Shown one piece after another: positions 1 through 15,006 of a DNA stretch of 15,615 nt (its first letter is position 1; each line of letters opens with the position of its first letter). The notes below the pieces were generated by a model. The model saw nothing but the letters and a program-made list of their open reading frames with translations, had not been told where the DNA came from and did not search any database. The stretch spans positions 1-15,615 of the forward strand of contig JAISBG010000732.1 of assembly GCA_031266315.1 (NCBI GenBank), written 5' to 3'. The position numbers were made by a program, and so were the translations under genes. Source of the DNA: Planctomycetaceae bacterium (GTDB lineage Bacteria; Planctomycetota; Planctomycetia; Pirellulales; Thermoguttaceae).

Positions 1-3000
1 TTCTTCAAACCGGAGAACCGGATTCAATTCGATAGAAGTATTTGTATCCTCATCGTTATTCACAAGCCGGACAACAAGAGTTGCGGCGGTTCCCGGGGCG
101 AGTTGTGAAATGTCAATCAAAATTGTACCGGCTGCCGTATCAAGTTGGACACCGGAAGCGGTGAGCGGTGTCATTCCTTCTGTTGCATTAAAGACGGCAT
201 CGCGTCCGGCGGAAATCGTCGGCAACAAGGAATTCCCTTGCGCATCAAGGAGTGCGAGTTCAAAGGCATCCCGAATCATTCCGTTACTGGAAGCGTCAAA
301 CAACAGATTACGATAATTAAAAACAAGTGCCGTGCGGTCTGCCGGAACGGTTAAATCGATACGATATTCCGGCGTGAATTCATCCTGTTCCCGTAGTATA
401 ATTCCTTTGACATCAACCGTTAAGGTATTACTGCGAAAAGTACCGTCTTCATCAGTTGCGGTTGCAGTAATTCTCCGAATTCCGATTTTATCGTAATGAT
501 GTGTCCAGTTTGATGGATTCCCCTCCACTGTTTCAATATTACCATCTCCCCAATCAATTGTCCAATGAGTAATCGTATCCAGACCGGGATCAGTACGGGT
601 CAATTCAAGCGAGTACAAATCACCGGACACAATTTCATTCTCTCCGGCAATGGTCAGCGTCGGCGGAACATTATGAACATGAAGTTCAAGCGGCAGAACA
701 TAATCATCATGTTTCCATTGATCCGGCACCGCGTCGCTGTCAAACCAACCGTTCCGTGTTCCGTTATTATTGTCGTACAACAATTGAGTTATAGGACGAT
801 AATTGCCGGAATAGTAGGCTTCGCGCGTCATTTCAATTATTTCCGCAACAGTAAACCGATAGGGCAACTTCCCCCAGACGGCACTAAGCAACGCCGAAGC
901 GGATTCGCGCCAGAGGAACGTGAGACTCCCCATGCCGCCGCCGGACTTAATCGCTTTCATCATGATGTGAGGGGCTTCCTCAATTCCGATTATTGCTGCA
1001 AAATCGTCCGCCGGCTGAATCACGATCCAACCGATCCGTTCCAATGCCCAAAACGGAGCATTGGCACCGGAATAAACCCGTGCGGGAATTCCCGGAATTA
1101 ACGTATCAACCGATGTTTTCACCGTAATAGAATAGGACGCTTCCCCATCAGGGTATAAATGAAACGCTTCTGTTGCGCTGCCGTCAACGGTTTCAATGCA
1201 GCCATCGCCCCAATCAATTTCCCACTGCTCTATATTGTTACCGTTGCTGTGAAGTGAGAGTTTGTAATGGTTTCCTTCATATCCTTCAGGATCGCCGGAG
1301 ATACTCGGAGACGTTTCTGTAACTGCATCTTCCAGTAAAACCGTATCACTTGATTGCGCAACATTATAAGCGGGAATACCGTCAATGGTGTCAGGAGCGG
1401 GTAAAATAGTGAGCGTAACAGTTTCCTGATCTTCGTCCAGATTATCCGCGACGGGAATCACTTTTAATGTTACATAACTTTGTCCTGCCGGAATATCAAC
1501 ATATCCGCGCCATGTTCCGGTTACAGAATCGTAAACCGTGTCGGCGAAACTCTGATAGTCCGTTCCATACGTTGCCGAACCGCTTAAAGAAAAATAAACC
1601 CGTAACGATGCCGAATTATTCTGATGTCCTGTACGTAAAATAGTAAACTCACCCGGATTCAATCCCCGCTCGGAAGCGAAAGCATCACTGGCAATGACGG
1701 AAACACGCCATGAATCATCATCAATAATTGAAACCGTTGCATCGGTTTCACCGGGTAAAGTATAATAATTGTTGCCGGAATCGCTCAACAAACTGATTTG
1801 AACCGTTTTGACCGATTCCCGTAATACGTTATCATACACACTGACCGGCAGGTCGGCATATTCTTGTCCGGCATCAAACCAAAGAGTTCCAACTTTTGTT
1901 GCGGTATCAAATTCTGTTGCTAAAATAAAATCCGTACCAAAAACAGCGGTACTGTTCGGCGTATCCAGTTTGAACTTCACGCCGAGTTTTCCGTCCGTCG
2001 AACTCCGGCGCAACCGAACAAGACCGTCGGCATATCCTTCCTCACCGTTTGTAACAGAATCAATCCATACCTGATTGGGCAAATCATCGTTTTCAATCAG
2101 GACGGTTGCGGTTCGTGTTCCGGCAAGAATATAGCCTTGCGAATGATTTTCGTCCGCCGCGAGAAGGCGGAGAACAACATTTTTATCAGGGTCGGCAGTA
2201 CGATTATTCACCGCCGCAATCGGAATATCAACGTAACGTTCTCCATTTTGAAATGTAACAAAACCATCGGCACCCCAAGGCATCGTACCGGGAAGCGAAT
2301 CATAATCTGTTTCATGAATCGCCGTACTATTTCCGGCATCAATCGTATAGGACACGGTCAAAGTTCCCGACGTATTATCACGTTGGAGACGGATATAACC
2401 GTTATGCCCGCCTTCAACCGCGTGTTGTATCGAATCAATTTTAACAACAGAAACAATATCATTATCTGTAACAGAAACTGATTGTGAAATATTGGAGCCG
2501 AGTTCGTAATTACCGTTACCTGAGGTAAGTGTAATCGACACTGTTTCCGTTTCTTCAACAAGTTCATCGTCATGAATCAGCACCGGAATATCAACATAAG
2601 TTTCGCCTGCCTTAAACGTAACAGTTCCCTGATGACGCACGGCGTCCGTACCGGGCAGATAGGCAAAATCCGTACCGTTTATTGCCGTATTGCTCTGCAC
2701 ATCAATAATGTAACTTACCGTTAAATCCGTATCCGTCAGATCACGCCGCAACCGGAAATAAGCATTACTGCCGCCTTCCGAACCATGTTGTACAGAATCA
2801 ATTTCAACAACCGCTTTTTTGTCATTATCAATTATTGAAATAGAGTGAGAAGACCGTGTTTCATCAATTGTGTAAATGGTGTTGATGCCGACCACATCCG
2901 GGTCGCCGGAAATGATTGTTATTGAAAGCGTTTCTTTCTCCTCAATGAGAGAATCATCTGTAACACGAATCGGCAAATCAATATACTGCTGACCTGCGGC

Positions 3001-6000
3001 AAACGTAATAAATCCTATTTCGATATTCGTCGGGTTTGTTCCTAGAGGATAATCAATATCATCGCCAAGTGTAACATTTGAGGACGCATCAATTCGGTAA
3101 TAAATACGCAGAGCATTCGTCGCATCGTCTCGTCCGAATCGAAACAAACCGTTTTGCCCGCCTTCATAACCGTCCTGACCGGTTTCAATCCAAACGGTGG
3201 GAGGAATATCGTTATCAATAATAAAAATAGTTGATTCCGCCTTGTCGGAATCAACGACCACATACGAAGGTTCGCCTGTTTCAGAAAATATATCTCGCGA
3301 TGCTTTCAGTTGCAAGACAACGGATTTCGGATAATTAATTGCCTGATTATCGATACTGATAAGCGGAATCCGTACCGTATCTTCTCCGGCGGCAAAGGTA
3401 ACTTGTCCTGAAGTCGAATTCGGACTCATACCGGGAAATGTTTCAAAATCACTGTTCTTGACGGAGATACTGCCGCGTTTATCAAATTTGTAATAAACCG
3501 TAACGGAATTGACAACATTATCACGTTTCAGTACAAAAAATCCTTCCGAAGTTCCTTCAACCGCATCTTGTCCCGGTTCAAACCAAACGGTTACATGATC
3601 ATTATCAACAATAAACACTTCGGCTTGAAAACGTTCCGTATCGATAAAATACGTAACACCGGGATTGTAATACGAATTATAAACGGGCGAGTTACCATTG
3701 GAATCAGTCAACCGAATTTGAATTTTTTCCATCGGTTCTACAATGATGTCTTCAATAAGTGTAATGGGAATATCGACATAATATTGTTGCGCTTCAAAAG
3801 TAATTTCACCCCAATTGTTGCCGTTACTTGTTCCCGGCAGGAAGGTGTAATCCGTTCCGTTACGTCCCCAACCAATATTATTGTAATAACTGTTGTTGTA
3901 GTCATTCAGATAATATCGTACAGTAAGCGGCTTTTCCGCATTGTCCCGGCGCACCCGAATAAAACCATCCAGAACCCCTTCTTCCGCGTCTTGCGTTTGA
4001 TCAATCCAAACAAGAATAGACTCGTCATTATCTGCAATTTCGAGCGTTCCAACTTTTCGGTCATCAAGTGTGTACAATGTTCCGCCCGTTGAACTCACTT
4101 GATCTGCCGTCAGTGTTATCTGGACTTTTTCCGTTCCTTCAATAAAATCGTCTTCAAGTACGATAACCGGAATATCAACATAATCTTTACCGTCTTCAAA
4201 CGTTACAGAACCGTTCGATTGACCGCCGTTCGTTCCCGGAAGAAAATCAAAATCAAGACCATTCTTGCTCCAGCCGGTCGGTAACGTTTGACCGGAATTG
4301 CCGCTATTATTCGCGGCTAAAGAATAATACACCGTTAAATTTCCGTTCGTATTATCCCGACGCAAACGGAAATAACCATTTGTACTATCGGTATCATTTT
4401 CCTCTCCATTTTGAGTTGTTTCCAGCCAAACTTGGGTCGGAACATCATCATCTGTAATAGTAATTTGTTTTTCCGATTGAGACGAATCGATAAAATAAGT
4501 CTCGCCGTAATTGTAACTCTGTGCGTCATTTTGACCCTGAGAGGAGGAGATTAACCGTAACAAAACGGATTCATCCGGCTCTACGTAAATATCATCAATC
4601 AGATGAATTGGAATCTGCACTTCGTCCACTCCAACGGCAAAAGTAATAGTGAAACGGTTATTCCATTGGTCGGTACCGGGCAGAAAATCAAAGTCAATTC
4701 CGTTTCGTCCCCATCCATCATAACGATAATAACCCCGGTTATAATCACCCAGATCAAGATAGACCGTTAATTCTTTATCGGAATGGTCTCGCCGGAGAAC
4801 GAATAAACCGTCTGAACCTTCCTGACCATTCTGTGTTTCCGCAATCCAAACCGTAACGGATTCGTCATTGTCCTCAATGTATATTGTTGCAGATTTTTTC
4901 TCCGCGTCAAGCATGTAACGCGGTTCCGACTCATTGGTATGAACGAGAGTGAAACCGATTTGTTCCGTTTCCTCAATATAGTCGTCGTCCTTAACGGTAA
5001 TCCAAATTGTTACCGAATCTTCCCCGTCCGCAAATGTAATGGAACCGCGGTTGTTCCACTCGTCTGTTCCCGAAAGAACATCAAAATCAACACCGTTTTT
5101 TGCCCAACCGGGATAATTATTGTAATAATAACCGGAATTTTGATACGGAAGGTCAAACCAGACTTGAAGTGAACCTTCGGTATGGCTTCGTTTAAGGATA
5201 ATAAGTCCGTTTGCGCCGCCTTCTACACCATTACTGTACGAATCAATCCAGACACGAGTGGGGAGTTCGTTGTCAATGATCTGCACCGTTGCTGTACGAT
5301 TTTCCGGGTCAAGAAGATACTTGATACTTTCGTCCGAACTGTAACAATCACTCCCTTGCATCAAAGTCAATTGAATCTGTTCATCGCCTTCTACCCAAGA
5401 ATCGTCAACAGGAACAATTTGAATATCAACATATTCCTGATTACTTGCAAATTCAATAGAACCGCGTCCGTAATAATAAGATGTTCCGGGTAATTGTGTA
5501 AAATCTGTTCCATTACGCGCCCAACCGGCAGGAACGGTTGTATAGTATCCGACATTTTTTGTATCAATTTCATAATAAACAAGCAACGATTGCGTTAAAT
5601 CACCTCCGCTACGACCAAGCCGGACATAACCGTTGTCGCCGCCTTCTTCGGCATTTTTCACTTCTTCAATCCAAACACGAACAACTTCCTCATCATCCGC
5701 TATTTCCAATGATGCGGTTTGACGTTCCTCATCAATGAGATAAGTTGTTCCGGCAGTATTCGGTTCTAATGTTATCGTTACAATTTCCGTTCCTTCCATC
5801 CGTTGGTCATCAAGAATAGTCACATCAATATCAATAAAATCGACACCGGCAAGGAAAGAAAGTGTACCGCGATTATTTCCGTAACCGGTGCCGGACAGAT
5901 AATTGAAATCGCGCCCATTCGTCGCCCAGCCTAAAATATTCGGGGTTTGGGCACTGTTTTGTGTTGCCAGACTGAACCAGATAGTTAATGCTTTTGAATC

Positions 6001-7887
6001 ATCGTCGCGATGGACACGAAAAATTCCGTTTTGACCGTTTTCCGCTCCGTCCTGTATTTTCTCCAGCCAAACCGTAACGGAAATTTCGTCATCAATCAGA
6101 GAAACGACTGCGGAATTTTTTGTTTCATCAATCTGGAATGTTGCACCGCCGCCGTCGCCTTTAAGGTTACTCAAGGTCAAACGAATATCTTCCGTTCCTT
6201 CAATCCAATCGTCGTTAATCGGAGTGATTGGAATATCAACGTATTCTGAATTTTCGGAAAATGTTACAGAACCGTGTGTATTGGAACCATTCGTGCCGGG
6301 CAACCAACTAATATCCGTACCGTTTTTCGCCCAACCCGATGTTGCTGTACCATTATTAAGCGGATCAAGGTCAAAATAAACCGTCAATCTCCCTTGTGTG
6401 TTACTGCGCTTCAAACGAACAAAACCGGGAGAACCGCCTTCGGTTGCATTCGTTACGGAATCAATCTCAACGAGAATCGGCGGTTCGTTATCGTGAATAG
6501 CAAGTGTTGCCGTGGAAGTCTCGGTACTCGTAAAATACGTTATATTATTAGCCGTCCCATCAGAGGAAGGCAATAAGGTCAGACGTACATGTTCGGTTCC
6601 TTCCGCTAAAGAATCGTCAATTGCCGTAATAGGAATATCGGCAACATAAGAACCAGCAATAAATGTAACATTCCCCCAACTATTCCATGTGTCAGTACCG
6701 GGCAGTAAATTAAAATCAACCCCGTTATAAGCCCAACCTGAGGGACAGTAATAATTGTAACAATCATAATAATAGTAACACCCGCTATTATGGTCATCCA
6801 ACCGGTAAAAAACCGTTAAATCACGGTCGGCATTATCACGTTCCAATTGAAAACCGCCCGCAGTACCGTCTTCATAAGCATCGGTTGTTGATGTAATCCA
6901 AACATTCACCGCCGGATCATTATCAAGAATCGTTACGGTACCGGAGGTGTGGTCAGGGTCAAGATAATAAGTGATTTCCTGAGAATAATAATCGTCATAA
7001 TTATAGGAACGCAACGTGAGACCGATTTGTTCGGAATTTTCGATCCAAAGATCATCTATTATTGAAATACGAATCTCTGCAAAAGGATTTTCCGCTTCAA
7101 AAGTAACACTCCCATAATTACTGTACTGATTCATGCCGGAAAGAGTTTCAAAATCCGTACCGCTTTTCGCCCAACCGGCATAATTGGAGTAATAACTATT
7201 ACGATAATCAATTTCGTAATAAACAACCAATTCCGTTTCAAAATTATCGCGTTGGAGTTTAAAAATACCGGAATCACCGTCTTCCTGACCATCTTGTGTT
7301 TCCGCAATCCAAACCGTGGTCGGAATCGTCGTATCAAAAATGGTCAACGAAGCCGCACGGGAATTGGTATCAATTGTATAAGACGTATTCGATGAAATTC
7401 CGGTACGGTCACTCCAATAGGAATTTTCTGTAATAAGAACAAGTTCGAGACGCTCATCGCCTTCAAGATAAGCGTCCGGCAAAGCGTTAATAACAAGGTC
7501 TGTGTAATATTCACCGTCATTAAACCGGACATGCCCTTGATAATTTCCTGAGGAACTGCCGGGCAAATAAGGAAAATCTTTACCGTTAGAAGCCCAACCG
7601 GAATAACCGTAATAACATCCATAATAACAGCCGTAACTATCGTTACGATAATCAAGTTGATAAAAGGCGGTTAAATCCCCTTGATTATCGTCACGTTCAA
7701 ACCGGACGTAACCTGCTTGCTCACCTTCGATGGCATCTTGGCTTGAATGAATGCCAACCACAGAGAGCATCTCCCGAACCTCCAATGATTCCAAATGGAG
7801 TGAGCGGGAACGGAAACGGAGCGGCTGCATTTTCTCGATTCCGAAAAATTGTATTAGCCAATTCAAAAAAGATTTTTTCCCGGACAT
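1..7887 (-). CDS. Giant LEPR-XLL-type Calx-beta/PKD repeat surface protein (3' end beyond window)
   Basis: The reading frame is open from the ATG at 7887 to base 1 (2629 codons) with no stop, so the C-terminus is missing. The start is fixed by AAGGAG 7 nt upstream. Residues 32-42 read LESLEVREMLS, matching the LEPR-XLL N-terminal signature of exported planctomycete giants. About 16 Calx-beta repeats follow (residues ~43-2165), spaced about 120-145 residues, each with a V-W-I-like first strand, an F-x-L-x-R-D strand, an NG-x-D-F turn, an LPGT turn and an acidic strand such as DDSWVEGDEQIQLTL. Calx-beta domains bind Ca2+ and serve in adhesion. PKD-like domains with I-D-W-G-D-G lie at ~2190-2260 and ~2405-2490, separated by an unrecognised segment. 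The last ~130 residues (FDASSNGMIRDAFELALLD, then RLVNNDEDTNTS) resemble a beta domain common in such giants. It is probably a secreted or cell-surface adhesin, co-transcribed with the upstream glycosyltransferase. Ligand and anchoring are unknown. Confidence 0.93.
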   Translation of the reverse strand, partial: MSGKKSFLNWLIQFFGIEKMQPLRFRSRSLHLESLEVREMLSVVGIHSSQDAIEGEQAGYVRFERDDNQGDLTAFYQLDYRNDSYGCYYGCYYGYSGWASNGKDFPYLPGSSSGNYQGHVRFNDGEYYTDLVINALPDAYLEGDERLELVLITENSYWSDRTGISSNTSYTIDTNSRAASLTIFDTTIPTTVWIAETQDGQEDGDSGIFKLQRDNFETELVVYYEIDYRNSYYSNYAGWAKSGTDFETLSGMNQYSNYGSVTFEAENPFAEIRISIIDDLWIENSEQIGLTLRSYNYDDYYSQEITYYLDPDHTSGTVTILDNDPAVNVWITSTTDAYEDGTAGGFQLERDNADRDLTVFYRLDDHNSGCYYYYDCYNYYCPSGWAYNGVDFNLLPGTDTWNSWGNVTFIAGSYVADIPITAIDDSLAEGTEHVRLTLLPSSDGTANNITYFTSTETSTATLAIHDNEPPILVEIDSVTNATEGGSPGFVRLKRSNTQGRLTVYFDLDPLNNGTATSGWAKNGTDISWLPGTNGSNTHGSVTFSENSEYVDIPITPINDDWIEGTEDIRLTLSNLKGDGGGATFQIDETKNSAVVSLIDDEISVTVWLEKIQDGAENGQNGIFRVHRDDDSKALTIWFSLATQNSAQTPNILGWATNGRDFNYLSGTGYGNNRGTLSFLAGVDFIDIDVTILDDQRMEGTEIVTITLEPNTAGTTYLIDEERQTASLEIADDEEVVRVWIEEVKNAEEGGDNGYVRLGRSGGDLTQSLLVYYEIDTKNVGYYTTVPAGWARNGTDFTQLPGTSYYYGRGSIEFASNQEYVDIQIVPVDDSWVEGDEQIQLTLMQGSDCYSSDESIKYLLDPENRTATVQIIDNELPTRVWIDSYSNGVEGGANGLIILKRSHTEGSLQVWFDLPYQNSGYYYNNYPGWAKNGVDFDVLSGTDEWNNRGSITFADGEDSVTIWITVKDDDYIEETEQIGFTLVHTNESEPRYMLDAEKKSATIYIEDNDESVTVWIAETQNGQEGSDGLFVLRRDHSDKELTVYLDLGDYNRGYYRYDGWGRNGIDFDFLPGTDQWNNRFTITFAVGVDEVQIPIHLIDDIYVEPDESVLLRLISSSQGQNDAQSYNYGETYFIDSSQSEKQITITDDDVPTQVWLETTQNGEENDTDSTNGYFRLRRDNTNGNLTVYYSLAANNSGNSGQTLPTGWSKNGLDFDFLPGTNGGQSNGSVTFEDGKDYVDIPVIVLEDDFIEGTEKVQITLTADQVSSTGGTLYTLDDRKVGTLEIADNDESILVWIDQTQDAEEGVLDGFIRVRRDNAEKPLTVRYYLNDYNNSYYNNIGWGRNGTDYTFLPGTSNGNNWGEITFEAQQYYVDIPITLIEDIIVEPMEKIQIRLTDSNGNSPVYNSYYNPGVTYFIDTERFQAEVFIVDNDHVTVWFEPGQDAVEGTSEGFFVLKRDNVVNSVTVYYKFDKRGSISVKNSDFETFPGMSPNSTSGQVTFAAGEDTVRIPLISIDNQAINYPKSVVLQLKASRDIFSETGEPSYVVVDSDKAESTIFIIDNDIPPTVWIETGQDGYEGGQNGLFRFGRDDATNALRIYYRIDASSNVTLGDDIDYPLGTNPTNIEIGFITFAAGQQYIDLPIRVTDDSLIEEKETLSITIISGDPDVVGINTIYTIDETRSSHSISIIDNDKKAVVEIDSVQHGSEGGSNAYFRLRRDLTDTDLTVSYIIDVQSNTAINGTDFAYLPGTDAVRHQGTVTFKAGETYVDIPVLIHDDELVEETETVSITLTSGNGNYELGSNISQSVSVTDNDIVSVVKIDSIQHAVEGGHNGYIRLQRDNTSGTLTVSYTIDAGNSTAIHETDYDSLPGTMPWGADGFVTFQNGERYVDIPIAAVNNRTADPDKNVVLRLLAADENHSQGYILAGTRTATVLIENDDLPNQVWIDSVTNGEEGYADGLVRLRRSSTDGKLGVKFKLDTPNSTAVFGTDFILATEFDTATKVGTLWFDAGQEYADLPVSVYDNVLRESVKTVQISLLSDSGNNYYTLPGETDATVSIIDDDSWRVSVIASDAFASERGLNPGEFTILRTGHQNNSASLRVYFSLSGSATYGTDYQSFADTVYDSVTGTWRGYVDIPAGQSYVTLKVIPVADNLDEDQETVTLTILPAPDTIDGIPAYNVAQSSDTVLLEDAVTETSPSISGDPEGYEGNHYKLSLHSNGNNIEQWEIDWGDGCIETVDGSATEAFHLYPDGEASYSITVKTSVDTLIPGIPARVYSGANAPFWALERIGWIVIQPADDFAAIIGIEEAPHIMMKAIKSGGGMGSLTFLWRESASALLSAVWGKLPYRFTVAEIIEMTREAYYSGNYRPITQLLYDNNNGTRNGWFDSDAVPDQWKHDDYVLPLELHVHNVPPTLTIAGENEIVSGDLYSLELTRTDPGLDTITHWTIDWGDGNIETVEGNPSNWTHHYDKIGIRRITATATDEDGTFRSNTLTVDVKGIILREQDEFTPEYRIDLTVPADRTALVFNYRNLLFDASSNGMIRDAFELALLDAQGNSLLPTISAGRDAVFNATEGMTPLTASGVQLDTAAGTILIDISQLAPGTAATLVVRLVNNDEDTNTSIELNPVLRFEE
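1385..4019 (-). repeat. Calx-beta repeats 11-16, canonical form
   Basis: Six further repeats of ~360-420 bp lack the tyrosine-rich loop and the G-W motif. They read through directly to the usual T-A-x-x-G-T-D-F/Y turn, for example NTAINGTDFAYLPGT in repeat 13 and SATYGTDYQSF in repeat 16. Repeats 13 and 14 are shorter and close to each other in sequence (VEIDSVQHGSEGG against VKIDSIQHAVEGG), suggesting a relatively recent duplication. The final repeat is the most diverged. Confidence 0.8.
4020..7765 (-). repeat. Calx-beta repeats 1-10, with an expanded loop
   Basis: Within the giant protein, the first ten repeats (each ~390-430 bp, diverged in sequence) differ from the canonical Calx-beta fold by an insertion before a conserved G-W-x-x-N/S-G-x-D-F turn. 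Examples are NSYYSNYAGW in repeat 2, NSGYYYNNYPGW in repeat 7 and NNSYYNNIGW in repeat 10. Repeats 1 and 3 carry cysteines in the loop (GCYYGCYYGYSGW; SGCYYYYDCYNYYCPSGW). Repeats 4, 5 and 9 have the insert but without the tyrosine run. Repeat boundaries are approximate, read from successive V-W-I and GTVTI-D-N-D type strands. Confidence 0.85.
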
Positions 7888-9489: not shown

Positions 9490-9634
9490 GTACAAATTTA
9501 CACGGCTTCCATGCCAATCCGTATCAAACGATACAGATCATACTTAAAAATACAATTTTCAAAAAGGTAACTGCTTTCAAATTTGACGAATAAATCAAAT
9601 CTAAAAACAATGAGGTCACTCATTTTTAGTATTC

Positions 9635-9768
9635 GTAATATTTTCAGTGGAATTTTCCTAAATAACTGACTTACTTCCTGTTTAAGAGATAGATGATCTT
9701 TTACAAAAAGATTGTTCATCTCTACCTTGTGTTTGTTCACTTTTAACAAAATCCTCCAAAATATTACT
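9635..9768 (-). repeat. ~140-bp inverted-end repeat, copy 1
   Basis: On the plus strand it begins GTAATATTTTCAGTGGAATT and ends CCAAAATATTAC, so the outer 10 bases are perfectly complementary. Conserved blocks shared with the copies at 14196 and 14866 are the AGTGGAATTTTCCTA end, ACTTAC/TTCCTG, ACCTTG and the CACTTTTAAC end. The interior holds its own hairpin at 9691-9721 (ATCTTTT-aca-AAAAGAT with an outer AGATG/CATCT). It lies in the predicted leader of the glycosyltransferase. Either a MITE or a structured leader. Confidence 0.7.
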
Positions 9769-9772
9769 AACA

Positions 9773-9809
9773 TTCTTTGTATTCGCAACAATCGCAACGG
9801 ATACTATGA
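9773..9809. repeat. 37-bp direct repeat, copy A
   Basis: This is identical over 37 bp to 9934-9970 (begins TTCTTTGTATTCGCAACAAT, ends CGGATACTATGA on the plus strand). It overlaps the -10 box and predicted start of the operon promoter, and abuts the end of the ~140-bp repeat. Confidence 0.9.
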
Positions 9810-9834
9810 TAATCCCACTCCATTCATTTGTCAA
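9806..9834 (-). promoter_or_regulatory. Sigma70-type promoter for the glycosyltransferase/giant-protein operon
   Basis: Minus strand: TTGACA (9829-9834), a 17-bp spacer, then TATCAT (9806-9811), which matches 11 of 12 consensus positions. The bases just upstream are A/T-rich (AAAATTATATTTTTTAA), like an UP element. Transcription would begin near 9799, inside the first 37-bp repeat copy, and cross the ~140-bp repeat before reaching the glycosyltransferase. Confidence 0.72.
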
Positions 9835-9933
9835 TTAAAAAATATAATTTTCCGCCTTTTTATTCATAACCTGTTAAGAATACACGGATTATAAATTTTT
9901 TAATTTTCTCGTCTCTGTAAACTTGGGTAAGTG

Positions 9934-9970
9934 TTCTTTGTATTCGCAACAATCGCAACGGATACTATGA
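9934..9970. repeat. 37-bp direct repeat, copy B
   Basis: Identical to 9773-9809 in the same orientation, 161 bp away. No TTGACA-like box accompanies this copy. It abuts the palindromic element at 9975-10111, so it may mark a duplication made when one of the neighbouring elements moved. Confidence 0.9.
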
Positions 9971-9974
9971 GACC

Positions 9975-10111
9975 TTCTAAAAACCCCGCTAGCCCCAATG
10001 TAGGACTTGTAACCACAAAGGCGACGAACAAAGGTTGTTTATTGTGTTCTTTGTGCGACTTCTTCGCCTTTGTGGTAAAAAATGTTTGGTTCGAAATAGT
10101 GGTTTTTAGAA
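9975..10111. repeat. ~137-bp palindromic intergenic element
   Basis: The ends are TTCTAAAAACCCC (9975-9987) and GTGGTTTTTAGAA (10099-10111), an inverted repeat matching at 12 of 13. Inside is a perfect 13-bp inverted repeat, ACCACAAAGGCGA (10012-10024) and TCGCCTTTGTGGT (10064-10076), with a nested ACAAAG/CTTTGT pair (10028-10033/10049-10054). Repeats built on ACCACAAAGGC are familiar as dispersed noncoding palindromes in several bacterial phyla. It begins ~35 bp after the autotransporter stop and could halt or stabilise that transcript, but has no U tract. Confidence 0.7.
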
Positions 10112-10146
10112 CCTGCCTGTAAAAAGAATACAAACATTTTCAATCT

Positions 10147-13100
10147 TCACCAATAAAGTAAAACCGACAGAATCAACTCTTCCCGATTGGTGCGTTGATA
10201 AAATTCGTAATCATAATTGAGTTGTACATCACATTGTTTTGTAACTGTTCCACGAAGTCCCATTCCGAGCCGGACACTGTGATGTCCCCAGTATCCGCTG
10301 TCAGCATAAAACGCGCGGCTGTCGGGTACTGCATGATAGGTTGTCCAAACGCGGGAATGTTCATCAAGGAGTTCCGCAATATAAAACGCATGTAATTCCG
10401 GCGTCCAGCAGGTTCGTTGTGTAACGAAATCTCTCTGAAATTTTATTCCAAGCGGAAACCTGAGCGAATGATAATTACTTTTCGCTACAGAAAGATTGGC
10501 TTCATACCCGCCTGTCTCCAGTATGGCAGGTGTTGCAACATAAATATAATGTAATCCCAAAGATGATGTTACTCGTGCCAGTCCTGCCGGTAATGTTCTT
10601 CCCAACTCAATACCAGCCGAAATCAGATCATCATTATATTTCGCCCGTGTTGTCGCAACAAAATTCGCCGGTTCCGAACCGATATTTATTTCTCGTTTCG
10701 TTTTATGCCAATTTTTCGCATATCCGATATATTCGTTCAAATACCAATCATTTTTCTGTAACTTTGTATAAAATAAGGTACGAAATGTATTAATTGTACC
10801 GCTGGAACGTATTGAATCATAGTGTTGAAAACCGTTTTCGTATCCCAAAACAATACCGGCACTTGTATAATATAACATTCTGGAATTTTCCAATCCCATT
10901 GCAATTCCGGTTGTACGAAAATCATAACCGCTGTAAGGACCGATATGACGGCGGTGATTAAAGTCGCCGGTAAACATTCCCCATCGCCTAATCGGGTCAG
11001 AACTAATTCGACAGCACTGCGAACAAGGAATACATTCAAAATCTTGTTGCGGTATTATTTGTAGAAATTTTCGTTGCGACATCGCAACAACATCCTGACC
11101 TGTAGCAAAAATTTCACCATGCAATTGTGCAAACGCTTCTGGAAGTAAATCGGAGTTTGCGGGAAGATTTGCAAGCGCATCGTAGAGTCTTCCCAATTCA
11201 CTTGCCCGTCCTGATTGAATAATATGATTCATTCCGTAACCCGCACGGCGCGCGTTCGGTGTCCCGCGAATATCAAATCCCGGTATTGTTTTCAAAACCA
11301 AATATAAATCGTTACCATCAATTTCCTGAGAAAATCCGAACCCTGCTTTTTCCACGTAATTTGAAAACAAACCTTCCACCCCATCCTCTGTATCAATTAT
11401 TAAGTACCGCCGGTCACCTGTCATTTGCGCACTATTTAAAACAGAAATATCTAAGGTCGCATCGGTAACAATCGCCGCATTTTCATGAACGACCAGCCGG
11501 TCACTACTTGGTGAAGTTTCGTCAATCTGATAACTTCGTGCCGCATCTAAATCAACAATAAATGTAGAACCTTTTTCAAATGTAACACTTTTTTCTACTT
11601 CAATTGTTCCGATTTTGTTATTATCCGAATCAATACCAGGAGTAAGTGAACCGCCGTCTTGAATGATTAACGATTCAATAAATCCGTTGCCGGATAATGT
11701 TGCCCCGTTCCAAACGTTATAATCGGCTTGAGACCGGAAGGACAAAATATTTTCGTTTCCGAATTGGAGTTGACCCATGCGAATATCTGCTGTGCCGGTG
11801 TGACGATTATGATTGCCCAATAAAATAATATCGCCTTCCGATATTAACCGACCATCACCGGAGAGGTCATTATTAAATGTTCCATTAAATAAAAGTTCCA
11901 AAGTTGCTTCGTTTTGAATCTGTCCTGTTCCCATCGCGCTAGAATGTGTTGCAGAAATAGTTCCTTCGTCAATGTTCACATCACCATGATAAGAATTGTT
12001 CTCTGCTCCTAAAATTAGTGTACCATTTCCTGATTTTGTAATAACACCGGTTTGACCGTCAATGTCGCTAATCTGATCGTAAATACTTAATTGATGCTCA
12101 GATTCAATATGTAGTACCGCCCCCTCTTCTCCAATCCGAATTCCGCCGTTACCAATATTTATCGTTGCACTATCTGTTTCCGATGCAGGCGGAGTACCGG
12201 AAACTTCCAAAGTTCCGCCGTTGAAAATCAATTGTTGTGCATTTAATTGAGTTCCCTGTTTTAGTACAATCGTTCCATGATCAATCATTTCAATATTTCC
12301 CGACGTTGTTGTTCCATAAACTCCAGCAGTATCCGTTCCGTCGGATTCTTCAAGGACAAAATATCCTTGCTGAATTGTTGTATTTCCCGCCATCTCCGAA
12401 GTATTCCAGAACAAAACACGTCCCGCTCCGTCCAGTATTACTTGGGAATTTTCTGTTCCGCGAATTGAGTCATGAAATTCAATTATTCCTGTTGCGCCAG
12501 GTTTAAGTTGTAACATGGCTTCCGACGCAATATTAATATCATTTTTTCCAATACTGTCCGTATTTCCTTTATATTGAATCGTCCCGTTTCCTTCAAGAAC
12601 GAAAATCCCTCGCTCTTGTATTGTTACGGAACCGCCCGAACCGTTTGAAACTGTATTCGTAATAGAAAGAGTCTTTTCCGTATCAACAGTAAATCCACCC
12701 GCCTTACCTGCTTCAATAATAAGATGATGATTATCGTTGCCAAAACTGTCAAAAACGATATCATCGGTTATTTGAATTCGCGCTGTATGAGCCGCATCTG
12801 ATTCTGTACCGGAAAAACGAACAATTCCTAATCGTGCGCCAATTTGATCTGCTTTTGAAATAGAAACATTACCTCCTTCAATTTCAAATGTACCAATATA
12901 TCCGCTATTATCCGCATTGAGAACAAGTGTTCCGGCATTGATTTTGCGTAACAATACATCTTCCGTTGCACTGGCAATAGAATCAAGTGTCCGGTCTGTT
13001 GCGGTGCTGTTTCCGATAGTAAGAATATTTCCGTTTGCAATATCGAAAACGGTATTTGCTGTTTGAAATTCATTATCCATGTACAAAAATCCGCCGCCGC

Positions 13101-14175
13101 TCACTACCCGATTTTCGTTATAAAGAGTATCTTTTGTAACTGTTATAATCACTTCGCCATTATTGTTGTAGATTCCGCCGCCGTATTGTGATGCCGCATT
13201 ATTATTGAATTCGGGATTAATGAGTGTTGTGGTACCGAAATCATTATAAAAGGCTCCGCCTGATTCTGCCGAATTGCCGTAAAAAATGCCGTTGGCAAGA
13301 GATAATGTATCATAATTCACTAACGCTCCGCCATACCGGGACGCAATATTTTCTGTAAATGTCGCGCTATTGGTAATGGACATTATTCCGTAATTGAAAA
13401 GTCCGCCGCCGTCCATCGCAATATTGTTGCTGAAAACAGCATTGGCAATATGAACGTCTTCTCCTTCATTATAAAAGGCTCCGCCGAAAGCGAGTGCAGT
13501 GGCTCCTGATTGTGATGAGGCGGAAACCTGATTCTTAGTAAAAGTCAATGTTCCTGTAACTGTCATCGTTCCTGAATTGAACAAGGCACCGCCAACTGCT
13601 TCGCCCAAGGTTTCACTTCCGACGACATTGGCATGATTTTGATTTTCGGTAAAAAGCGCATCGGTAATATTGAGAGTTCCCCATTCGTTGGAAATAGCAC
13701 CGCCTTTAACGTAACCGGAAAATCCGCTGATGGTGCCGCTGACACGATTCTTTTCAAAAACGGCATACCCGGAACTTCCGGCAACAACCGGTTCAATATT
13801 TAATGTTGCAGACATTATATTGATTGCCCCGCCGTAATCGACACCAACTGCGTTACTAATATTGATGTAATCCAGAATAACCGTTCCATCAAAATATTCG
13901 AGGAAACGAGAATTATTTTTCATATCAATTATTCGAATCTGGGGTGTGTCGGAACGAATAGTGAGCGGAAGTGTCAACTGACTACTGAGTGTTCCGTCGT
14001 CCTGATGCAAAATAATTGTATCATTTGAGCTTAGCAGACCGGATGCAACCAATGTTGCTAAATCGGCTGAATCTTGCGGCAAATCATACGTTGCCGACTG
14101 TACATAAATTGGGAACAGCCATAAACCTGTTACGAACAATGAAGCAAATATTATTGGTTTCATTTTTTTATTCAT
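10147..14175 (-). CDS. Autotransporter adhesin with Pmp-like repeats and C-terminal beta-barrel
   Basis: A complete 1342-residue type V secretion protein. Residues 1-28 form a signal peptide (MNKKMKP, hydrophobic core, cleavage near VQSA). Residues ~135-370 carry repeats with the two Chlamydia Pmp tetrapeptides: FxxN (FEKN, FTEN, FTKN, FSNN, FTEN, FYGN, FNNN) alternating with GGA/GGG-[ILF] (GGAISN, GGALFN, GGAFYN, GGGLFN, GGALVN, GGAFYN, GGGIYN). Residues ~400-960 show autotransporter-associated beta-strand repeats such as GNGTLILGAENNSYHGDVNI. Residues ~980-1060 are the linker with the family-like L-P-E-A-F-A-Q-L-H-G-E segment, and ~1065-1342 form the barrel with an aromatic C-terminus (SVLLYW). 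C1048, C1051, C1054 and C1055 cluster at the linker/barrel border. It would be displayed across an outer membrane. The start at 14175 has no Shine-Dalgarno. Met5 is an alternative. It stands as its own unit, 685 bp before the next gene. Confidence 0.93.
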   Translation of the reverse strand: MNKKMKPIIFASLFVTGLWLFPIYVQSATYDLPQDSADLATLVASGLLSSNDTIILHQDDGTLSSQLTLPLTIRSDTPQIRIIDMKNNSRFLEYFDGTVILDYINISNAVGVDYGGAINIMSATLNIEPVVAGSSGYAVFEKNRVSGTISGFSGYVKGGAISNEWGTLNITDALFTENQNHANVVGSETLGEAVGGALFNSGTMTVTGTLTFTKNQVSASSQSGATALAFGGAFYNEGEDVHIANAVFSNNIAMDGGGLFNYGIMSITNSATFTENIASRYGGALVNYDTLSLANGIFYGNSAESGGAFYNDFGTTTLINPEFNNNAASQYGGGIYNNNGEVIITVTKDTLYNENRVVSGGGFLYMDNEFQTANTVFDIANGNILTIGNSTATDRTLDSIASATEDVLLRKINAGTLVLNADNSGYIGTFEIEGGNVSISKADQIGARLGIVRFSGTESDAAHTARIQITDDIVFDSFGNDNHHLIIEAGKAGGFTVDTEKTLSITNTVSNGSGGSVTIQERGIFVLEGNGTIQYKGNTDSIGKNDINIASEAMLQLKPGATGIIEFHDSIRGTENSQVILDGAGRVLFWNTSEMAGNTTIQQGYFVLEESDGTDTAGVYGTTTSGNIEMIDHGTIVLKQGTQLNAQQLIFNGGTLEVSGTPPASETDSATINIGNGGIRIGEEGAVLHIESEHQLSIYDQISDIDGQTGVITKSGNGTLILGAENNSYHGDVNIDEGTISATHSSAMGTGQIQNEATLELLFNGTFNNDLSGDGRLISEGDIILLGNHNRHTGTADIRMGQLQFGNENILSFRSQADYNVWNGATLSGNGFIESLIIQDGGSLTPGIDSDNNKIGTIEVEKSVTFEKGSTFIVDLDAARSYQIDETSPSSDRLVVHENAAIVTDATLDISVLNSAQMTGDRRYLIIDTEDGVEGLFSNYVEKAGFGFSQEIDGNDLYLVLKTIPGFDIRGTPNARRAGYGMNHIIQSGRASELGRLYDALANLPANSDLLPEAFAQLHGEIFATGQDVVAMSQRKFLQIIPQQDFECIPCSQCCRISSDPIRRWGMFTGDFNHRRHIGPYSGYDFRTTGIAMGLENSRMLYYTSAGIVLGYENGFQHYDSIRSSGTINTFRTLFYTKLQKNDWYLNEYIGYAKNWHKTKREINIGSEPANFVATTRAKYNDDLISAGIELGRTLPAGLARVTSSLGLHYIYVATPAILETGGYEANLSVAKSNYHSLRFPLGIKFQRDFVTQRTCWTPELHAFYIAELLDEHSRVWTTYHAVPDSRAFYADSGYWGHHSVRLGMGLRGTVTKQCDVQLNYDYEFYQRTNREELILSVLLYW

Positions 14176-14195
14176 TGGTGTAAAATTGAATAATA

Positions 14196-14225
14196 GTAAT
14201 ATTCCAGTGGAATTTTCCTAGACAA
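14196..14225 (-). promoter_or_regulatory. Possible promoter for the autotransporter in the repeat end
   Basis: Minus strand: TTGTCT (14220-14225), 18-bp spacer, TATTAC (14196-14201), 4/6 matches in each box. The start would be ~15 bp before the ATG, giving a very short leader. The boxes are the terminal part of the ~140-bp repeat copy 2, so the element itself might supply the promoter. Weak evidence. Confidence 0.3.
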
Positions 14226-14340
14226 CCGGACTTATCCCATAATTTATGGGTAAAATTCAAGGGAGGACAACTTTCGCAGAAAGGTTACTCACCTTGACCT
14301 TGTGTTTGCTTACTTACCTTTAACGAAAATTTTGAAATAC
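14196..14340 (-). repeat. ~140-bp inverted-end repeat, copy 2
   Basis: It shares AGTGGAATTTTCCTAGA-AACCG at the low-coordinate end and TTTAACGAAAATTT at the other end with the copies at 9635 and 14866. Interior hairpins are CCCATAA-T-TTATGGG (14236-14250) and CTTTC-GCA-GAAAG (14271-14283). It ends 20 bp before the autotransporter start and its other end lies inside the prepilin remnant, just past the point where homology is lost. Confidence 0.7.
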
Positions 14341-14565
14341 TCCGATACTTTATGTTTCTATGAGTACTTGAACGGTAGGTCTCGTGGTGATGATGAAGTG
14401 CGATACCCGGTAATTTGAGTATATTTGTATCTTCTATCCGTCTTGCTGTTTCGCAGACGGTTGTCGGCAACAGAAGTGTAATTAAAACACCGATAATCGT
14501 AATAACAACTAGAAGTTCGGCTAATATAAAGCCGAATAGTGAAAACCGAATAAGTTGTAAGAATC

Positions 14566-14626
14566 TTGCAGAGAAATATTGGGAAAGTCCATGCTTTACG
14601 TAGCCATTCTTGACTTTCCTCTGCAA
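14566..14626. repeat. Long bulged hairpin next to the poly-G tract
   Basis: TTGCAGAG (14566-14573) pairs with CTCTGCAA (14619-14626), and GAAAGTC (14583-14589) with GACTTTC (14612-14618), giving 15 perfect pairs with one 9-nt bulge and a 22-nt loop. It lies inside the basic N-terminal extension of the prepilin remnant, 4 bp from the homopolymer, and constrains that coding sequence. Confidence 0.65.
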
Positions 14627-14629
14627 ACG

Positions 14630-14641
14630 CCCCCCCCCCCC
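14630..14641. repeat. 12-bp homopolymer (C on plus, G on minus)
   Basis: An uninterrupted run of 12 C on the plus strand, the only such run in the window and out of character with its AT-rich surroundings. It falls four codons after the ATG of the prepilin remnant, and the present length keeps that frame open. Such tracts slip in replication and act as phase-variation switches in many surface genes. Sequencing error in the length is also possible. Confidence 0.9.
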
Positions 14642-14865
14642 TGACTTGCCCATTTTAACATGGCGATTTTTACCAAGTTATTATGGTTTTGGAGGAGGAG
14701 TAAATTTTTCGGAATGTTTTCAATAAAGTTTTTCATCGTCGTGTTTATAATTTTGCAAAATTTCATTGAACTTTTACGAAACGTTTGTAACAAAACAACA
14801 CTACACGGCAAAAATGTATCGCAATTGAATAATATTCAAGGGGATTTTTTCTTTTGTGAAGTTTT

Positions 14866-15006
14866 GTGATATTTTAGTGGAGTTTTCTTAGATAACCGAT
14901 TTATTTCCTGTTTTTGAGTAAAACTCAAGATATAAAGAACCTTCAGTGCAAGGTTTTCTACCTTGCTGTTGGCTCACTTTTAACGAAAATTCCTCTGAAA
15001 TATTAC
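14866..15006 (-). repeat. ~140-bp inverted-end repeat, copy 3
   Basis: On the minus strand the two ends pair at 18 of the first 22 positions by my count. Interior hairpins are TTGAGT-AAA-ACTCAA (14914-14928) and AACCTT-CAGTGC-AAGGTT (14938-14955). The AAGGTT arm can alternatively pair with a downstream ACCTTGC. It sits ~33 bp downstream of the promoter at 15039-15067. Confidence 0.7.

Follow-up and report, generated by a model that had tools for sequence, protein, structure and literature searches.

Organization of the locus

The window, which is the whole stretch of 15,615 nucleotides analyzed here, represents contig 412 of an 883-contig, 4.24-Mb genome of a Planctomycetaceae bacterium which is 65.8% complete. 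Three short repeats are present in it along with long ORFs (Table 1). Copy 1 is situated 174 bp upstream of the first listed start of the Glyco_transf_41 ORF and copy 2 is situated 20 bp upstream of the ATG of the autotransporter ORF; both copies thus precede ORFs, as described in the initial annotation of this DNA. The same annotation placed the repeats on the sense strand of the genes. This did not hold: the local genes are encoded on the minus strand, and at other places the elements have no constant orientation relative to genes. The copies are overlapped by three ORFs (99, 122 and 81 aa) which extend past them, and none of these ORFs is transposase-sized. In their small size (133-148 bp) and in the lack of a transposase gene, the window copies conform to a non-autonomous transposon (MITE).

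Some other features were observed around the repeats. The 122-aa ORF overlapping copy 2 gave no Pfam match. Its start resembles that of planctomycete prepilin-like (DUF1559) proteins, and this resemblance is lost shortly before copy 2; the ORF is probably a gene remnant truncated near this copy. It contains a run of 12 C, possibly a slippage tract or an assembly artefact. A 37-bp direct repeat, identical by reading, directly adjoins copy 1. An ORF which stays open for at least 2629 aa and possibly encodes a large surface protein runs off the contig and spans repeats at about 400-bp spacing.

Table 1. Coordinates of the features in the window and, in the last row, in locus L155
Feature	Position	Strand	Description
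Open ORF	1-7887	-	at least 2629 aa
ORF, 506 aa	7940-9460	-	Glyco_transf_41 domain
Left flank octamer of copy 1	9627-9634		TAGTATTC
MITE copy 1	9635-9767	+	133 bp; ends GTAATATTTT / AAAATATTAC, 10/10 complementary; imperfect hairpin in the middle
Right flank octamer of copy 1	9768-9775		TAACATTC
Direct repeat, 37 bp	9773-9809 and 9934-9970		TTCTTTGTATTCGCAACAATCGCAACGGATACTATGA
ORF, 1342 aa	10147-14175	-	Autotransporter beta-domain and PATR
MITE copy 2	14196-14343	+	148 bp; right end decayed (GAAATACTCC); no excess folding
ORF, 122 aa	14285-14653	-	probable gene remnant
Run of 12 C	14630-14641		inside the 122-aa ORF
MITE copy 3	14866-15006	+	141 bp; ends 18/22 complementary; strongest folding of the three
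RF01687 pair inside MITE	L155 636-825		

The three copies could be aligned over their full length with a mean column identity of 79%, and their limits were drawn from GTAA-like to TTAC-like ends. The terminal inverted repeats of copies 1 and 3 are as claimed in the initial annotation. Internal hairpins which still pair were also claimed. Folding compared with dinucleotide shuffles was in excess on the two strands of copy 1 (z -3.8 and -2.2) and copy 3 (z -6.5 and -2.9) and showed no excess in copy 2 (z -0.2 and -0.6), so this description is true for two of the three copies.

The repeats belong to a high-copy family

With copy 1 as query, blastn matched at least 51 places of the genome at E <= 10 (40 of 202 candidates scored), among them copy 1 itself, copy 3 and segments of copy 2. 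A search with a covariance model built from the window copies, as proposed in the initial annotation, recovered at least 40 places with E <= 1 from this genome (150 of 1114 candidates scored). Of these, 15 had an E of no more than 0.011, and the three copies used for building the model are among the 15. The 22-bp end GTAATATTTCAGTGGAATTTTC occurs 257 times with up to three mismatches in this incomplete genome (138 forward, 119 reverse), and the reversed pattern gave no occurrence in the same genome at the same tolerance.

With up to two mismatches, the end was found in 10 of 30 genomes, representing this one and nine of 18 congeners, with 2 to 404 ends in each positive genome. The 11 genomes representing other families of this order all lack it at this tolerance. 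The exact end is present in 40 stretches of named public contigs, all labelled 'Planctomycetaceae bacterium' and derived from six MAGs (the records of this genome were possibly excluded from that set). Judging by their isolate codes, these six are presumably part of a MAG set from termite guts. Viral contigs do not contain the exact end, and the element L152 had no match among plasmids or phages. The three window repeats are decayed members of a high-copy MITE family found among uncultured planctomycetes and represent ordinary, old copies of it. Among the open-licence papers searched on IS66 with MITEs, on MITEs or REP/RAYT of planctomycetes, on insertion sequences of termite-gut planctomycetes, on MITEs with REP/BIME and on compensatory stems of MITEs, no title describes this family.

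Target duplications and empty sites

Elements were defined as facing ends 60-700 bp apart, paired in fetched loci of several genomes (n=56; doubtful pairs such as L163, L119 at 3391, L173 and L002 at 834 were kept in the duplication counts). Exact 8-bp flanking duplications were observed in eight of the 56 elements against 0.31 expected from random re-pairing of the flanks, while the other 48 elements have none. Exact 7-bp duplications were found in two elements (0.24 expected), and lengths of 2-6 and 9-12 bp were near the null. Flank octamers with at least 6/8 identities were found in 17 elements against about 4.7 expected. Target duplication of 8 bp is thus supported at the level of the family. 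The window copies possess no intact 8-bp duplication. Their flank octamers are identical at six of eight positions in copy 1, three in copy 2 (GAATAATA / GATACTTT) and four in copy 3 (GAAGTTTT / GAATAAAT). The octamers of copy 1 are possibly a decayed target duplication; these identities are consistent with old age and are not evidence by themselves.

Empty sites were searched with 54 joined-flank queries including the window copies, which gave 27 junction-spanning hits, most of them self-matches to the own end of the element or short AT-rich matches. Paralogous empty sites were accepted for two elements. The element at L114 lies within a tandem duplication, and the uninterrupted sister, read by eye, has the target once. 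For L119, the repeat paralogues in L120 and L290 continue across the junction, with an 8-base length difference nearby. L158 against L247 was set aside as repetitive. None of the window copies themselves showed an empty site with these queries.

The initial annotation had left the choice between a MITE and a structured RNA leader. The duplications, the paralogous empty sites and the IS66-like ends described below favor the MITE, and the RNA leader was not borne out.

The ends resemble those of IS66 elements

The terminal inverted repeats begin with GTAA, as in the IS66 family. In the sections of PMC11946415 on IS66, 8-bp repeats and inverted repeats starting with GTAAGCG are given as traits of the family; a table of PMC3281130 gives the value 8 for the duplication of two Paracoccus IS66 elements, and for ISDge4 of the ISBst12 group, PMC12898284 gives GTGACTACTCAGCA and GTAACTGCTCAGCA as the two ends, along with a repeat of 8 bp. 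The GTAA ends along with the 8-bp duplications of the present family therefore fit IS66.

IS66 transposase (PF03050) genes carrying the MITE end were found in two congeners, G014 and G018. In G014, the end is situated upstream of the gene in L217 and downstream in L222 and L226, and all three loci have exact 16-base matches to GTAATATATCAGTGGA. In G018, L215 has a 14/16 match to the MITE end, and L221 is a 1549-bp element which is bordered by related ends on its two sides, contains a frameshifted 400-aa ORF and shows no clear duplication. The distance from the end of the PF03050 match to the right end is almost uniform, with 149, 150, 152 and 152 bp in L222, L226, L221 and L215, respectively. 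The own IS66 remains of this genome (G000) are three contig-end fragments with a more distant variant of the end (GTAACTATTCAGTAG / GTAACTATTCAGTAGC), and the IS66 end of L084 in G005 is GTAACTGTTCAGTGG; here the domain-to-end distance is 121 bp and 120 bp, respectively.

IS66 matches over the cut-off were present in six of nine genomes with at least 19 ends and in two of eight without ends, excluding G015 and G017 (2 ends). G008, which has 159 MITE ends, gave no IS66 match over the cut-off. IS66 hits track the presence of the MITE only loosely. The fetched loci were also searched for a transposase enclosed by ends lying far apart, which gave three pairs. The pair of L221 is the IS66 element itself, that of L106 encloses ORFs and that of L113 contains no ORF of 150 aa.

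No intact IS66 element bearing the MITE ends on both sides was recovered from the fetched loci of the genus. This is what would be seen if the MITE belonged to another DDE family which duplicates 8 bp, with the likeness to IS66 ends arising by convergence. Against such convergence stand the same end at a nearly constant distance behind four IS66 genes and the exact 16-base matches at the three G014 loci, and we regard it as very unlikely.

Interiors are mostly palindromic and exchangeable

The interiors of 48 of the 56 elements were analyzed after trimming 28 bp from each end (L163 and L002 at 834 were dropped, others by length). Their median folding z was -7.45 and 77% were below -4, while flanking stretches of equal length (n=85) had a median of -0.25 with 5.9% below -4. 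Comparison by blastn at E <= 1e-4 distinguished 12 groups of 19, 13, 5, 2 and 2 members and seven singletons; one of the two-member groups includes a doubtful element. The three largest groups span several species. One end type thus encloses interiors which have no detectable similarity to each other and are mostly foldable, about a quarter of them not being so.

In a rough motif scan of 120 distinct ends of this genome, the commonest hairpin, which is tagged and hereafter called hairpin A, was present at 56. A motif like Acido-Lenti-1 was present at four and a CAGGTC hairpin at five, and 52 had none of the four motifs. The REP-like interior represented by hairpin A is therefore frequent and not general. 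Of 107 anchored hairpins, 62 have a GTAA end no more than 130 bp away (up to six mismatches, no indels) and 45 have none, four of these 45 being too close to the locus start to judge. In L020 (1335 onward), L030 (1079-1400) and L146 (489 onward), interior hairpins are positioned between other outer sequences, CATGTTCCGCNCCGTAGTTAAAAA and CTGATTCTACCGGATTAGGTGT, which suggests a second kind of element sharing interior modules.

Covariation in hairpin A and the RNA leader alternative

Residue pairing in hairpin A was analyzed for the eight loop-proximal pairs. Of 81 anchored copies, 66 were used, selected by a right-context rule. Watson-Crick pairs occupied 512 of 528 cells, compared with 391 (SD 7.3) after column shuffling, and none of 500 shuffles equaled the observed value. 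This shuffle ignores the relatedness of the copies, and the 14 stem types among them represent few independent events. Sliding the partner reduced pairing to 15-49%. Eight of the stem types are perfect and comprise 59 of the 66 copies. The stems vary at pairs 0, 2, 3, 4 and 7 while the GCT loop is constant. Mismatches in the 66 stems were two GT, nine AC and five others, and 80 unfiltered rows gave 548 of 640 Watson-Crick cells with 10 GT, 21 AC and 61 others. Oriented by gene strand, the G-T and A-C mismatches of 39 hairpins were 0 versus 1, a comparison of very few mismatches. The arms of the hairpin thus covary with no excess of G-T, which gives no pointer to an RNA on one strand. As G-T intermediates are not favored, the pattern argues against selection on one-strand RNA and fits maintenance at the DNA level, though near-symmetric elements weaken this test.

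Gene context was analyzed for 53 of 54 listed elements (a duplicate of window copy 3 was skipped) with crude ORF calling. Thirty of the 53 are flanked by ORFs on both sides, with 25 co-directional, three convergent and two divergent pairs, compared with 28, six and four, respectively, in other gaps. Four overlap an ORF by more than half. The gene contexts of the elements resemble background gaps. For the orientation of window-type copies, 13 of the 40 covariance-model matches were examined besides the three window copies, several of these matches being weak. Among the seven copies with agreeing neighbor ORFs, four run along the genes and three against them, and window copies 1 and 2 are among the latter three. 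Lack of orientation bias had been named in the initial annotation as a result that speaks against RNA, and it is the result obtained here.

The position of copies 1 and 2 upstream of ORFs, the folding of two of the three window copies beyond shuffles and the strong covariation of hairpin A would agree with a recurring structured RNA leader, a cis-acting RNA regulating the downstream genes. Such a leader is poorly compatible with copies in both orientations relative to genes, with 8-bp duplications, with the same ends around dissimilar interiors and with the scarcity of GT relative to AC in filtered and unfiltered stems alike. The Rfam scan of the window also gave only a single chance-level match (E 0.91). 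With no orientation bias and hardly any G-T pairs, the RNA leader is unsupported; it was rejected on orientation, target duplications and scarce G-T pairs, and its probability appears to be very small.

REP-like features and Y1 transposase genes

Stems of at least 8 bp around GCT, chosen blind to any tag, were scanned for the residues before them. GTGG or GTAG (GTRG) was found ten positions before the loop in 68 of 73, directly before the 10-bp stem. A GTAG-type tag is thus present beside a short palindrome, as in REP sequences. Inverted pairs of hairpin A are also present, L004, L054 and L152 being examples. These two features, and the 45 of 107 anchored hairpins with no GTAA end within 130 bp, hint that the elements are purely REP/BIME, that a Y1 (RAYT) transposase spreads them and that their GTAA ends are coincidental. 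The distribution of Y1 genes does not agree with this. A single Y1_Tnp gene was recovered from this genome, at L247, and no tagged hairpin is adjacent to it; at this locus, a RAYT gene flanked by hairpin A was thus not found. No Y1_Tnp match at E <= 0.001 was found in G005 (254 ends) and G008 (159 ends). In addition, the family shows 8-bp duplications, which are not expected of Y1 transposases. On the Y1_Tnp survey and the L247 locus, RAYT was rejected as the mover of the window family, and spread by Y1 transposase alone is judged improbable.

An array of GACCCC..GGGTC hairpins follows the Y1 gene of L247 (about 1900-2383), and hairpins similar to it by eye are present inside the MITE at L043 145-610.

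Acido-Lenti-1 (RF01687) matches in interiors and genomes

RF01687 matched the interior of L155 twice in inverted arrangement (30.5 and 30.1 bits) and that of L052 once (30.1 bits), all below the Rfam gathering cut-off of 37 bits. L056, L021 and L005 gave no match at E <= 0.1. Among the 30 genomes, 18 have a match at E <= 0.01 and 11 have one over the cut-off, reaching at least 136 places in one genome; as 141 candidates were scored per genome, these counts may be low. Of the 14 control genomes, one has a match and none is over the cut-off. In G022, the matches form at least eight inverted pairs with a spacing of about 100 bp. RF01687 is not bound to the MITE, as G001, G006 and G007 have at least 32, 66 and 136 places, respectively, and no MITE end.

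The neighborhood of Y1 genes was scanned in 29 loci covering 31 of 41 Y1_Tnp matches. RF01687 was found within 500 bp of the gene in five loci (E <= 0.05), three of them with matches over the cut-off (L245, L250, L307), and the other 24 had no match within this distance. In L245 (1250-2172) and L250 (1390-1888), inverted copies flank the Y1 gene on both sides, an arrangement like that of a REP with its transposase. L310 (779-1484) has the gene between two like-oriented copies which score under the cut-off, L307 (1628-1672) has one on a single side and L246 has a weak match (28 bits).

Acido-Lenti-1 is listed as a candidate RNA in a table of PMC2864571, is mentioned in PMC13298647 as an ncRNA of little-known function and appears in a copy list of PMC10059132; in these parts of the three papers the label REP is absent. 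Described as a candidate structured RNA, it looks here like a mobile palindrome which is abundant also in congeners with no MITE, and 'Acido-Lenti-1 RNA' looks more like a REP repeat than an sRNA gene. The link to the MITE interiors is the likeness of L155 and L052 at about 30 bits. If confirmed, the Acido-Lenti-1 link would move an annotated 'sRNA' family to mobile DNA, and annotation hits to it would be read differently.

Proposed origin of the family

On the basis of the ends, the duplications and the interiors, the repeats of the window are most probably old insertions of a palindromic non-autonomous MITE with ISBst12-like IS66 ends (probability roughly 0.86). An IS66-type DDE transposase supplied by full-length elements would recognize the GTAAT(A/T)(T/A)TTCAGTGGAATTTTC ends, and the short element would be inserted between genes with duplication of 8 bp of the target, as suggested by the duplications and shared ends observed. 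Mobilization would thus take place in trans. Only the ends are common to the family, the interior being a mosaic of small palindromes. These are often REP-like stem-loops with a GTRG tag, a 10-bp stem and a GCT loop, arranged in several elements as inverted pairs. The stems are near-perfect and yet vary, and they are most probably maintained as DNA and not as an mRNA leader. Arm-to-arm copying during replication, or a hairpin of single-stranded DNA aiding spread, could be possible routes.

A wider reading, which we put forward tentatively and hold to be rather doubtful, is that the family represents composite mobile repeats of two unrelated transposition systems. IS66-type DDE ends would have repeatedly captured REP/BIME-like palindromes, giving many unrelated interiors with self-complementarity as common property. 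The stems would remain perfect through recurrent arm-to-arm copying or through selection of single-stranded DNA hairpins, and Acido-Lenti-1 would be a REP of RAYT-like transposases and not an RNA gene family.

Bacterial MITEs are usually viewed as having arisen by deletion from a single IS, with a single interior. What makes the present family unusual is the IS66 type of its ends, the number of its copies and the exchange of interiors which are mostly palindromic. The ends and, for the most part, the palindromy are kept while the inner sequence is exchanged, which raises the direct question whether hairpin structure helps spread or survival. The stem data provide a concrete test between selection at the RNA level, where G-U pairs are expected, and maintenance at the DNA level, where few are expected.

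Comparison with known systems

The ISBst12 group, as represented by ISDge4 in part of PMC12898284, shares with the MITE family the end pattern GTAAC..(C/T)TCAG and the 8-bp duplication. Unlike that group, the elements of the present family lack a transposase gene, mostly measure 60-470 bp, occur in up to hundreds of copies and possess several dissimilar interiors.

MITEPsy1 and MITEPsy2, in the account given in parts of PMC3189936, are similarly short and gene-less with IS- or transposon-like terminal repeats and are presumed to be moved in trans. MITEPsy1 has a 4-bp duplication and IS5-like ends while MITEPsy2 has Tn3-like ends, and no exchange of interiors is reported for them in those parts of the paper. 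In comparison, the IS66-type ends of the present family enclose five multi-member interior groups along with seven singletons.

The closest likeness of the tagged stems is with GTAG-tagged REPs and BIMEs, which are known from the PVC superphylum according to sections of PMC3733652. These also have a GTAG (in some cases GTGG) tag directly before a short stem, alternative complementary residues in the stem and neighbors in opposite orientation. The same sections describe G-T pairs as often seen and an association with RAYT genes, whereas in the present family G-T pairs are rare, no RAYT was found with hairpin A and the hairpin pairs are situated between IS66-type ends.
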